A stretch of 30,675 nt of DNA from a virus, in the IMG/VR virus record IMGVR_UViG_3300025311_000014, positions 1 to 30,675 of that record; one strand, 5' to 3'. The notes below the pieces were generated by a model. It searched no databases. It had not been told where the DNA came from and saw only the letters and a list, made by a program, of their open reading frames with translations. Below are positions 20-30,168 of this stretch, piece after piece. The position numbers and the translations under genes were made by a program. Every line of letters starts with the position of its first letter. Within the stretch, counting starts at the first letter, position 1.

Positions 20-109
20 GGAAGCGTGGCAGAGCGGTTGAATGCAACGGTCTTGAAAACCGTCGAAGGGGAGACTCTTCCGTGAGTTCGAATCTCACCG
101 CTTCCGCCA
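20..109 (+). tRNA. tRNA-Ser (anticodon UGA), attachment gene
   Basis: A complete class II tRNA can be folded by eye. The acceptor stem pairs GGAAGCG (from 20) with CGCTTCC (ending 105), then G106 and an encoded CCA (107-109). The anticodon stem ACGGT/ACCGT (47-51/59-63) closes the loop CTTGAAA with TGA at 54-56. A long variable arm follows and the T arm contains GTTCGAATC. The 90-base length and long variable arm fit tRNA-Ser. The gene is intact and its 3' end faces a phage integrase, the usual arrangement where a prophage has integrated into the tRNA 3' half and restored it. The exact att core cannot be set because the right end of the prophage is outside the window. Confidence 0.97.
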
Positions 110-18322: not shown

Positions 18323-18838
18323 TTACAGGCCGATGGCTTTGCGCTGGGCTTCGAGCAGGTCTTTGCCGTCGACCAGGAAGACGAAGTTGAGCAGGTCGAT
18401 CTCGATCTCGACGTTGCCGTCGACGGTGAGCTTGTAGTAGCTGCAGGTGGTGGTGATCTTGTGCTCGGTGTCTTCGCCGGGCTCAGCGTCGCCCATGTCG
18501 ATTTCTTCATGGCGGCCGCGCACGACCACCTCGACGGCGCTGACTTCGCCGGTGTCGTCACGCTGCACGGCGCCGGCCCAGCGCAGCAGCACGCCGGCGG
18601 CGGTGGTGATGCCGTACTGGCGGATGACGGTGAGGTCCCAGCCGCCGAGGGTCCACTCGATCTGTAGCCCGTCGTCGCCCATACCCATGTCGGCCTTGAC
18701 TGGGCCGTCCATGCCGGCGCCGCGCCAGGCTTCCATTTTGCGGGTGAGGTTGGGCAGGGTGACCGACTTGCTGACGCCCATGTAGCTCTGGCCGTCGTTG
18801 AACATATTCTGGTTTTTCAGTTTGCGAGGCATGGCCAT
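18323..18838 (-). CDS. FII: Major tail tube protein gpFII
   Basis: 171 residues, the family's usual length. Typical segments are MPRKLKNQNMFNDGQSYMG, TLPNLTRKMEAWRGAGMDGP, EWTLGGWD and the C-terminal YKLTVDGNVEIEIDLLNFV. It forms the inner tube of the contractile tail through which DNA passes. ATG 18838 has GGAG eight bases upstream; an ATG two codons later is possible. It follows the sheath gene FI. Confidence 0.95.
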   Translation of the reverse strand: MAMPRKLKNQNMFNDGQSYMGVSKSVTLPNLTRKMEAWRGAGMDGPVKADMGMGDDGLQIEWTLGGWDLTVIRQYGITTAAGVLLRWAGAVQRDDTGEVSAVEVVVRGRHEEIDMGDAEPGEDTEHKITTTCSYYKLTVDGNVEIEIDLLNFVFLVDGKDLLEAQRKAIGL

Positions 18839-27501: not shown

Positions 27502-27867
27502 TCACTCTCCCTTGCCTTTTTTGAGCCAGGCCGGGACAAAGCTAGCGAAGTCGGTTTTCTCGATCAGCTCCAGGGCTTTGAGGGCCAGAGGCACGACGAT
27601 GATGGCGCCGACGAAGCCGCCGGGGCCGGTCTGGGTGATGGGGGTCTGGGCGACGATTTCGGAGGCGCTGACGTAGCCTGCGCCTACCGATACCAGTAGG
27701 CCGGTGCAGCGCTGCCAGGCTTTGAGGTCGCGCTGGTTCATGGCGATAAGCGCGGCACCGATGATGGCGCCGAACAGCGCATTACCGTCCATGGTAGGCA
27801 TGAGTGTGGCCAGGCCTACGCCTGCGGATGCGGCAACAACTACCGCGCCTATGGTTGGCTCAGCCAT
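27502..27867 (-). CDS. Putative holin
   Basis: 121 residues with hydrophobic segments near 5-23 (IGAVVVAASAGVGLATLMP), 31-43 (LFGAIIGAALIAM), 55-67 (TGLLVSVGAGYVS) and 83-100 (GGFVGAIIVVPLALKALE), and a basic C-terminus (PAWLKKGKGE). It resembles the putative holins of Pseudomonas P2-like prophages. It would permeabilise the inner membrane to release the endolysin. AAGGA precedes ATG 27867 at good spacing; the gene overlaps the cysteine-hydrolase gene by eight bases. Confidence 0.8.
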   Translation of the reverse strand: MAEPTIGAVVVAASAGVGLATLMPTMDGNALFGAIIGAALIAMNQRDLKAWQRCTGLLVSVGAGYVSASEIVAQTPITQTGPGGFVGAIIVVPLALKALELIEKTDFASFVPAWLKKGKGE

Positions 27868-28393
27868 GGTGTGTCCTTACTGCTGGGGAAGGTGTGATGG
27901 TGCCGCTGGCCAAATCAACCAAGTAGGCAGGCCGTTCATTGATCTGGTGGGCGAGCTGAACGAAGGGCAGGCGGTTGATGCGCTGCACCACTTCGCCGAG
28001 CAGCGCTGGGCTGAAACGCTGGGCGCTGGTGTCGAAGCCCAGGCCGGCGGCGCAGAACTCGCTGCAGAACATGCGCCGTTCGCTGTCGATCGCCAGGGGC
28101 AGTACTTGGCTGGCGATGACGCCGAGCCAGTCGTAGCCCTTGCCCTCATGCTGGTTGAACAGCGCCTCGATGCGCGGGGCATGGGCCCAGGGCAGGGGGA
28201 GCAGATCCCAATGCTCGAGGTCGAGCTCAATGCGCTTGGCACGCACGCCACCGTCCATTGCCGAGGCGGACAACCAGCGGCCGTCTGGCATGACCAGTTC
28301 GCAGTGGCTGTATTTGGAGCGCGTCCAGAGGCGGATCAGGCGGTTGAACAGGGTGCCTTGGCCTTTGTAGAGCGCGAGGTAGATCAGTCCCAT
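27860..28393 (-). CDS. YiiX/YebB-like permuted NlpC/P60-type cysteine hydrolase
   Basis: 177 residues. H30 in KYSHCELVM precedes the candidate nucleophile C110 in MFCSEFCAAG, the reversed His-Cys order of the circularly permuted NlpC/P60 (papain-like) fold; KGYDWLGVIASQVLPLAI between them is also typical. Such enzymes cleave amide or thioester bonds, often in peptidoglycan peptides or lipids. Placement in the lysis cassette, directly before two holin-like genes, suggests a cell-envelope role, perhaps as a virion-associated or accessory lysis enzyme. No signal peptide. GGTGA lies about four bases before ATG 28393, and the start overlaps X by ten bases. Confidence 0.82.
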   Translation of the reverse strand: MGLIYLALYKGQGTLFNRLIRLWTRSKYSHCELVMPDGRWLSASAMDGGVRAKRIELDLEHWDLLPLPWAHAPRIEALFNQHEGKGYDWLGVIASQVLPLAIDSERRMFCSEFCAAGLGFDTSAQRFSPALLGEVVQRINRLPFVQLAHQINERPAYLVDLASGTITPSPAVRTHHG

Positions 28394-28593
28394 AGGTTCA
28401 CCATTTGCCGCTGCGGTTGGGGGGCTTGCTCGGGGAGGGTGATGAGGTGGCCATGGGGCAGGATGGGGCCGAGGTCAGCCAGGCCGGGGTTGGCTTCGAG
28501 CACGGCCTCGGTCACGCCAGCGGTGCGGCCGTAGTGGCGCCAGCAGATGGCGTCGACGGTTTCGCCTTGCATGGCGCGCAGCTGCTGGGCCAT
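28384..28593 (-). CDS. X: Tail protein gpX (LysM-like)
   Basis: 69 residues: MQGETVDAICWRHYGRTAGV, EAVLEANPGLADLGPILPHG and HLITLP match the gpX family, a short LysM-like domain in the baseplate hub or tail. ATG 28593 overlaps the L stop as TGATG, and the end overlaps the hydrolase gene. Confidence 0.95.
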   Translation of the reverse strand: MAQQLRAMQGETVDAICWRHYGRTAGVTEAVLEANPGLADLGPILPHGHLITLPEQAPQPQRQMVNLWD

Positions 28594-29066
28594 CAGATGA
28601 GTTCCACGGTGGTGCGGCGGCGGCCGAGCAGGTCGCTCATGGCCCAGCGGGCGTCGCGGCGGTATTCGTCGATGCTGGGGGTGAGCTCGTCGGCGTTGGC
28701 GTTACCGGAGTTGGTGCTGTCGTAACTGCGGAAGCGTTCGGCCAGCTCGGCACCGGCGGTGCAGTAGACGGCGCGCAGGTAGAGGTGCACCGGACGCGAT
28801 TGGTTCTGGATTTGCGGGCCTGGCACTTCGGCCAGACTGGCGTAACCGAGGGCCAACTGGGCGACCTGGTAGGTGTCGAGCTCGCGGTTGACGCTGAGGA
28901 TGGCGTTGACCAGGGCGACCTCGAGGCGGATGGCGCTGATGCTGCTGTCCAGGCGCAGGGCAGCGCGCACGGCTTCACCGTCTAGATCCGGCCACCAGCC
29001 GTCGTTGCTGATGGGGTGGGGCTCGGCGACGGCGGGGACGGTGCCAGTGGCGATGAAGGCGCTCAT
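28593..29066 (-). CDS. L: Head completion protein gpL
   Basis: 157 residues: GWWPDLDGEAVRAALRLDSS, RLEVALVNAILSVNRELDT, HLYLRAVYCTAGAELAERF and RSYDSTNSGNANADELTPS are the gpL family pattern. gpL finishes the head after DNA packaging, at the head-tail interface. ATG 29066 overlaps the upstream stop as ATGA; a GTG at 29075 is less likely. Confidence 0.94.
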   Translation of the reverse strand: MSAFIATGTVPAVAEPHPISNDGWWPDLDGEAVRAALRLDSSISAIRLEVALVNAILSVNRELDTYQVAQLALGYASLAEVPGPQIQNQSRPVHLYLRAVYCTAGAELAERFRSYDSTNSGNANADELTPSIDEYRRDARWAMSDLLGRRRTTVELI

Positions 29067-29356
29067 GCTTGCCACCCTTGGCGGTCAAGGTCGCTCACGG
29101 CGCGGCGAATCTCGGCGCGGGTGAACTGGGGGTGGCGCTGACAGAGGCTGGTCATCAGCTCCTGGGCGTTGCGACTGACCAGGGCGCGTTGGCGGCTGGT
29201 GACCGGGACGATGGAGCCGTGGCGGATCGGCCCGGTGCAGACGGTGCGGTCGTATGCCTCGGTTTCACGGACATATTGCTCGGCGATCGACTGCAGCAGT
29301 TGGTCGCGCTCGGTGAGCGTGAAGTCGCACATGTGCAGGTCCGTGAATCTGTTCAT
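29063..29356 (-). CDS. Small hypothetical protein between M and L
   Basis: 97 residues (MNRFTDLHMCDFTLTERDQL, then LLQSIAEQYVRETEAYDRTV, a basic C-terminal helical part RRAVSDLDRQGWQA). Family not recognised; P2 has no gene here. The ribosome-binding site is weak (GGGCC), and an internal ATG at 29332 is possible. The stop is coupled to L by ATGA. A long structured element (29371-29437) lies 14 bases before the start codon and may control this gene. Confidence 0.65.
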   Translation of the reverse strand: MNRFTDLHMCDFTLTERDQLLQSIAEQYVRETEAYDRTVCTGPIRHGSIVPVTSRQRALVSRNAQELMTSLCQRHPQFTRAEIRRAVSDLDRQGWQA

Positions 29357-29370
29357 GTTCTGGCCCTAAA

Positions 29371-29437
29371 ACGGCGGTGGTCGGGGCGTCACAACTGGGA
29401 AAAGGAGTAAACCCGTTGATCAGCCCCGAGCCGCCGT
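29371..29437 (-). ncRNA. Candidate structured RNA element in the M-L intergenic region
   Basis: Three nested helices can be drawn over 67 bases: ACGGCGG/CCGCCGT (29371-29377/29431-29437), CGGGGC/GCCCCG (29382-29387/29423-29428) and CAAC-T-GGG/CCCGTTG (29392-29399/29412-29418, one bulge). In the late transcript the middle internal loop is UGAU/UGAC, which allows tandem sheared G-A pairs, and the apical loop is UUUACUCCUUUU, pyrimidine-rich with an anti-Shine-Dalgarno core. The stem is followed by UUUA, so partial termination is one possible role, and a cis-regulator of the next gene is another. Confidence 0.5.
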
Positions 29438-29451
29438 GTGCGTGGGGACGC

Positions 29452-30168
29452 TCAGTCAGCTGCCGGTGGTGGCGCAGCATGTTTTTTGAGGAGGCGCTCG
29501 ACGCGCTCCAGATCTTTTTTGCCGCCGCAGTTGCTGTGCAGGTCGATGGCGCGGGCCAGGTGCTGCTTGGCCTGCTCGAGCGGGGCAGTGTCGGCGTCGG
29601 CCGGGGCGTCATCGGCGAGCATGCTGGCCAGGGCCTTGCCGAGCGCCAGGTGCAGCTTGGCGCGGGCTTGGTCGGGCATGTCCTGCTCGGCGGTGAGGGT
29701 TGCAGCTTGTTCGAGGATGTAGAGCGGGAAGCTCTCGCCGGCCTTTTGCGCCTTGAGTGCGGCATTGGCGATTTCCTCGGCGATGAGGGTGCCGGTGCTG
29801 CGCTCGAAGCGGTCGGGCATGAGCAGGCTGTGCTTGATCACGTAGCCGGCAATTTCCAGGGCGCCCTGGTACAGGCCCGCGTCGATACACCAGACCATCA
29901 GGGTGGTTAGCACTTCGTCCTGCGCTCCGTTGCCGGCAGCCAATACGCCCTGGATGTAGGGCTCGTAGGCCGGGATCAGTTGAGCCTTGAGCTCGGCCTT
30001 GCCCTGGTTGGACTGCACGTTTTTGAGGCGCAGGCGATCCTGGATGAGCTGGGCGAGTTGCTGCTCGTAGGCGGTAGCGCCGGCCATGGAGATAGCCGGC
30101 GCGGTTGCGGCGGCCTCCTTTGCTGCGCGCTTGCGCAGCTGGTTACGTTGGGCGGGTGTCAGGGACAT
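29452..30168 (-). CDS. M: Small terminase / endonuclease subunit gpM
   Basis: 238 residues: MSLTPAQRNQLRKRAAKEAA, LKAQLIPAYEPYIQGVLAAG, MVWCIDAGLYQGALEIAGYV and LLMPDRFERSTGTLIAEEIA are typical of the P2 gpM family. gpM recognises and cuts cos DNA with the large terminase subunit gpP, which is outside the window. AGAGGT precedes ATG 30168. It follows N by 16 bases. Confidence 0.95.
   Translation of the reverse strand: MSLTPAQRNQLRKRAAKEAAATAPAISMAGATAYEQQLAQLIQDRLRLKNVQSNQGKAELKAQLIPAYEPYIQGVLAAGNGAQDEVLTTLMVWCIDAGLYQGALEIAGYVIKHSLLMPDRFERSTGTLIAEEIANAALKAQKAGESFPLYILEQAATLTAEQDMPDQARAKLHLALGKALASMLADDAPADADTAPLEQAKQHLARAIDLHSNCGGKKDLERVERLLKKHAAPPPAAD

Follow-up and report, generated by a model that had tools for sequence, protein, structure and literature searches.

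A conserved two-hairpin RNA between the terminase small subunit and head completion genes of P2-type phages

The gap between genes M and L of P2-type phages contains an element that is almost certainly a conserved functional RNA. It occupies the approx. 92–113 nt that separate these genes in nearly all the Peduoviridae examined, and it was characterized here from a window that is the whole stretch of viral DNA analysed, 30,675 nucleotides in length. An earlier note on this DNA described, at positions 29371–29437, three nested helices, a UGAU/UGAC internal loop and an apical loop. This description is exact; the complete element is larger and comprises two hairpins.

Structure and position of the element

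The late genes of the window are all located on the minus strand, and therefore the element RNA is the reverse complement of 29371–29437. Its predicted fold has a minimum free energy of −35.2 kcal/mol versus −21.4 ± 3.0 for shuffled sequences (z = −4.7), and none of 200 shuffles was equally stable. The features of the region, all on the minus strand and in the direction of transcription, are the following:

29452–30168 (−): gpM, terminase small subunit, the upstream gene (PF05944, 1.4e-48)
29454–29452 (−): UGA stop codon of gpM; hairpin 0 starts right after it
29440–29451 (−): hairpin 0, GCGU-CCCC-ACGC, directly 3' of the gpM stop codon; from the fold
29431–29437 (−): 5' strand of helix H1, ACGGCGG; all cells paired (100%), with recoding of the outer pairs and no change at the two inner G-C pairs
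29430 (−): unpaired C, short side of a 1x3 internal loop; invariant in both alignments (33 and 26 sequences)
29423–29429 (−): 5' strand of helix H2, UCGGGGC; changes on both sides at 7/7 pairs (26 sequences)
29419–29422 (−): UGAU, 5' side of the tandem G-A internal loop; from the fold
29412–29418 (−): 5' strand of helix H3; from the fold, sequence highly variable between relatives
29400–29411 (−): apical loop UUUACUCCUUUU, anti-Shine-Dalgarno-like; conserved only within the Pseudomonas/Xanthomonas group
29392–29399 (−): 3' strand of H3, with a bulged A at 29396; from the fold
29388–29391 (−): UGAC, 3' side of the tandem G-A loop; from the fold
29381–29387 (−): 3' strand of H2, GCCCCGA; from the fold and covariation
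29378–29380 (−): CCA, long side of the 1x3 internal loop; invariant in both alignments, UCA in a few deep branches
29371–29377 (−): 3' strand of H1, CCGCCGU; from the fold and covariation
29063–29356 (−): small gene of 97 aa (phrog_27964) between the element and gpL; ATG at 29356
28593–29066 (−): gpL, head completion protein (PF05926, 1.7e-48)

Two of these features, the 1x3 internal loop (C 29430 / CCA 29380–29378) and hairpin 0, are absent from the earlier description, and they are better conserved than the tandem G-A loop and the anti-Shine-Dalgarno-like loop. The latter, which had been singled out, is confined to the Pseudomonas/Xanthomonas group, and an anti-Shine-Dalgarno function was rejected because the loop is not conserved. 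A kink-turn, in which a three-nucleotide bulge adjoins tandem sheared G-A pairs, was considered in view of the tandem G-A and also rejected, given that the G-A loop is symmetric (4x4) and that the asymmetric 1x3 loop, located 7 bp away, has no G-A. As the earlier note stated, 14 bases separate the 67-base element from the start of the small gene, and the element is followed by UUUA.

A covariance model of the element, of which the window is a seed member, scores the window at 77 bits (E 4e-14). A second match at 18598–18663 (21 bits) is inside coding sequence and looks like chance, and was discarded as another copy.

The capsid gene N is located upstream of the element, and gpL is followed by gpX, two holins, a muramidase and LysC. 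The M–L gap is the sole sizeable gap in this part of the operon, where the other neighbouring genes overlap or nearly touch. Genes inserted in the M–L region stand after the element and not before it; 46 of the 257 loci with the element have a relative of phrog_27964 in the same position, always 3' of the element. The sequence that follows the 3' strand of H1 is roughly ACCUAUUCAGAGG in most members, and runs into the next ribosome-binding site. Elsewhere in the window, 27860–28393 (−), between gpX and the holins, matches phrog_1128 (labelled enoyl-CoA hydratase-like, moron category) and has no Pfam match, and a tRNA-Ser (TGA) at the very edge, 20–109 (+), may be the prophage attachment site.

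Conservation and covariation

The core of the element, GG-C-H2...H2'-CCA-CC with H1 and H2 paired, is present 3' of gpM in the window. An exact motif of this kind, formed by a 5-bp H1, the C and a 5-bp H2, and by the returning H2', CCA and H1', was found in 239 of 256 unique sequences downstream of M; it appeared in 16 of 5120 mononucleotide shuffles (0.3%) and in none of the reverse complements. Several of the 17 sequences without the exact motif are mis-started gpM frames or carry single changes, and the K139 and Zymomonas types are truly devoid of it.

Covariation was evaluated in alignments made with plain MAFFT, in which the structure was not used. In the first one, with 33 sequences, 98.4% of the cells were paired versus 76.1% in shuffled alignments, changes on both sides were found at 10 of the 13 pairs, and the covariation score was 0.503 versus 0.104. 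In the second, with 26 more divergent sequences, these values were 98.2% versus 65.7%, 11 of 13 pairs, and 0.789 versus 0.144, with a score of at most 0.140 when one strand was slid; since the sequences are related, the counts of both alignments do not represent independent events. The covariation that the earlier note proposed to look for in the helices of related M–L gaps is present in H1 and H2. RNAalifold recovered the same 13 pairs unaided in both alignments, and at one single position the four pair types GC, CG, AU and UA were observed. No change was seen in either alignment at the two inner G-C pairs, at the C or at the CCA.

Hairpin 0 shows the same behaviour. A stem of at least 3 bp, closed by a loop that contains CCC, is located directly after the stop codon of M in 247 of 256 unique relatives, versus 16% of shuffles, and its stem has been recoded as GCGT/ACGC, GCTC/GAGC, GCGC/GCGC, GCGG/CCGC and GTCG/CGAC. 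On its 5' side there is an ACCGA/ACAGA-like stretch, with CCGA present in 179 of 256 sequences. The UGAU/UGAC loop, whose conservation the earlier note proposed to test, is shared by several distant clades but not by all: the tandem G-A loop also occurs in FLC10, LPM4, G176 and Mae-JY29, and is absent from P2 and 186. An NGAN/NGAN form of this loop recurs above H2 at four loci from distant clades, and could be an optional module.

In regard to the strand, the H1 and H2 helices of the 256 sequences contain 15 G-U versus 7 A-C appositions (G-U in 15 of 2816 cells), or 14 versus 3 when three divergent members are counted without the positions that lie past their true H2. This count, obtained from the sequences, modestly favours an RNA of the sense strand. 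Folding energies are uninformative here, because in the antisense strand C/CCA becomes G/TGG and gains pairs; the antisense strand alone folds slightly more stably than the sense strand, and for this reason the G-U and A-C count was used instead.

Distribution among P2-type phages

The earlier note considered that the structure has no counterpart in P2. This proved to be wrong, since P2 and 186 both carry the element; the same fold, in a gap of 92–113 nt, is also present in AP3, Momento, FLC10, Acica, LPM4, M16-3, ST340-VIM1phi10.2, YenM 31.17, PHL101 and Sirocco. The idea that it could be limited to the clade of the window is therefore ruled out, given that it spans P2, 186 and phages of Burkholderia, Aeromonas, Mannheimia, Xanthomonas and others. 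The RNA is likewise located 3' of gpM in 80 close relatives, among which the outer helix flips between CGGCGG/CCGCCG and CGCCGG/CCGGCG. Pattern scans of viral and bacterial contigs, with hosts that include Pseudomonas, Stutzerimonas, Xanthomonas, Stenotrophomonas and Lysobacteraceae, yielded 280 matches, 257 of them at M–L; the remaining 23 are without the corresponding 5' half. Every element found is directly 3' of gpM and in a single copy per phage, which rules out several copies per genome. Deeper relatives, including a phage recorded from Microcystis, retain hairpin 0 and GG-C ... (C/U)CA-CC.

The covariance model matched 14 of 398 Pseudomonadota genomes, all 14 among the 27 genomes that have gpM, and gave no matches in the 371 genomes without gpM. 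When the gaps of model-negative genomes were read directly, seven more proved to have this core with H1 and H2 both recoded, for example AAGGGGGC-ACCGC...GCGGU-CCA-CCCCCUU. With these, the element is present at 21 of 29 gpM loci, and one of the other eight (L472, a second copy in genome G302) was judged by the silence of the model alone.

The gpM loci without the element are mostly of the K139/HP1 type, with gpR instead of gpX and a holin after L. In K139-type prophages (L460, L466, L465 and L473) other hairpins replace the element, several of them ending in U-runs like intrinsic terminators, and in L465 and L473 they are followed by a DNA methyltransferase gene. In two P2-type prophages of Zymomonas, M and L overlap, leaving neither gap nor element; these prophages represent a natural knockout for comparison. 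DNA that matches the P2 M–L gap is found in 1,477 of 5,426 complete E. coli genomes and, mostly with at least 99% identity, on 21 PLSDB plasmids, 12 of which are predicted to be conjugative, indicating P2-like prophages on plasmids.

Possible role of the element

The earlier note suggested a conserved cis-regulatory RNA. Conservation and covariation support this very strongly as far as the RNA is concerned, and the sense strand is favoured; regulation of expression and its route are what we infer. The reading that we tentatively prefer, and to which we give somewhat less than an even chance, is that of a cis-acting mRNA element located where head genes give way to lysis genes in the P2-type late operon, operating by RNA processing or by elongation control. 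Carried in the late mRNA, between the stop codon of gpM and the ribosome-binding site of the next gene, the element would act in cis. The boundary between the strongly needed capsid and terminase segment (O-N-M) and the L-X-holin-lysin segment would be marked by its GC-rich hairpins, with the fixed C/CCA internal loop and the CCCC loop as the features through which they are read. This could occur through RNA processing or protection of a 3' end, or through an effect on the polymerase, which would be slowed or modified during transcription; head and lysis genes could in this way be expressed at different levels. The phages that bear the element have L-X-holin downstream and those of the HP1/K139 type, with L and then gpR, are without it; nevertheless, this association represents one evolutionary split with one exception, the Zymomonas prophage, which has the L-X-holin order and no element, and it is a lead rather than a proof.

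Other explanations have to be weighed against this boundary element. In a weak intrinsic terminator or attenuator, part of the transcripts would end after M, lowering the expression of L and the lysis genes. The stable GC-rich hairpin, the UUUUA tail in the window, the U6 after H1 in the relative G176, the different M–L hairpins followed by U-runs in K139-type phages, and the terminator annotated at 769–796, inside the element, in the Mannheimia PHL101 record are all in line with it; however, a terminator scan of the window was negative, and a U-rich tail, even loosely defined as 5 T of 8 within 2 nt of H1, is present in just 41 of 256 unique relatives, mostly past a 3-nt spacer. Furthermore, terminators need neither a fixed C/CCA loop, nor a CCCC loop, nor compensatory recoding while the U-tract is lost. 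The partial terminator contemplated in the earlier note is thus unlikely. A polymerase-modifying RNA like put of HK022, whose two stem-loops would attach to the polymerase during elongation and keep it from pausing or terminating over the remainder of the operon, would account for two stem-loops of similar total length (approx. 70 nt in put, PMC9378689, and approx. 80–85 nt in the M–L element), for the invariant unpaired residues, and for conservation over very different hosts, as expected of a host target such as the polymerase. We consider it quite improbable, as put is located near early promoters and the M–L element in the middle of an operon, after its third gene.

The constant association with gpM, invariant loops that suit recognition by a protein, and the presence of the element in P2-type phages recorded from hosts as unlike as E. 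coli and Microcystis would also be compatible with a site at which a head or packaging protein of the phage binds (gpM, gpL, capsid or terminase), or with an RNA that is freed from the late mRNA and acts in trans. Against this, the genome of satellite P4, which is packaged by P2 proteins, is without the element (no covariance-model match; best score 11.4 bits, E 0.33). A required packaging signal in cis is therefore excluded, and the packaging-related element mentioned in the earlier note is further disfavoured by its location, at a distance of approx. 6 kb from where the linear P2 record ends; the case of P4 is still compatible with an RNA that P2 provides, and on balance a role of this kind is rather improbable. 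A structure at the DNA level, either a cruciform or a single-strand hairpin in replication or packaging, would agree with pairs that are nearly all Watson-Crick, with few G-U intermediates overall; we regard it as very improbable, given that the helices hold G-U two- to five-fold over A-C, that the position of the element is tied to the stop codon and the ribosome-binding site, and that P4 does not have it.

Returning to the boundary element, a plain 3'-end protector or an RNase III site needs no invariant C/CCA and CCCC, and this suggests a specific partner. A bolder proposal, which we hold as doubtful, is that this is an undescribed RNA device of P2-type phages that sets the balance or timing of head assembly and lysis through a specific partner at the C/CCA and CCCC loops. 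The partner may be the polymerase, a ribonuclease or a morphogenetic protein, and the device may be old enough to be common to phages recorded from Pseudomonadota and Microcystis. The element may explain how high capsid output with delayed lysis is obtained from one late operon, and, P2 and 186 being textbook phages, it is a clear and easily mutated target in a laboratory phage.

Comparison with other structured RNAs

A search of Rfam 15 (4227 families) gave no match at the element of the window (E up to 10) or in 14 phage loci (E up to 1), and a literature search found nothing on a P2 M–L RNA. A cis-acting phage RNA that resembles it is HK022 put, which also has two adjacent stem-loops with bulges and fixed unpaired residues (PMC9378689). 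The two differ in that put forms a triplex in its stem, is known to contact the polymerase, at the beta' zinc domain, with read-through as the result, and lies near early promoters, whereas the M–L element is placed mid late operon. Intrinsic terminators share with it a GC-rich hairpin between operon genes; however, most M–L elements have no immediate U-tract, and they have a fixed internal loop, a second hairpin and compensatory evolution of both helices. A candidate parallel is the Mu-gpT-DE RNA motif of Mu-like phages, a conserved structured RNA located just 3' of a phage head gene; it belongs to a different phage group and gene. The C/CCA loop itself may resemble a C-loop. Finally, the RNase III processing hairpins of phage T7 (R1.1 type) are irregular, of approx. 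60–70 nt, with an asymmetric internal loop, and are located between genes of a late mRNA. Their overall shape is like that of the M–L element, which differs in having an invariant C/CCA and an adjoining CCCC hairpin that RNase III does not require.
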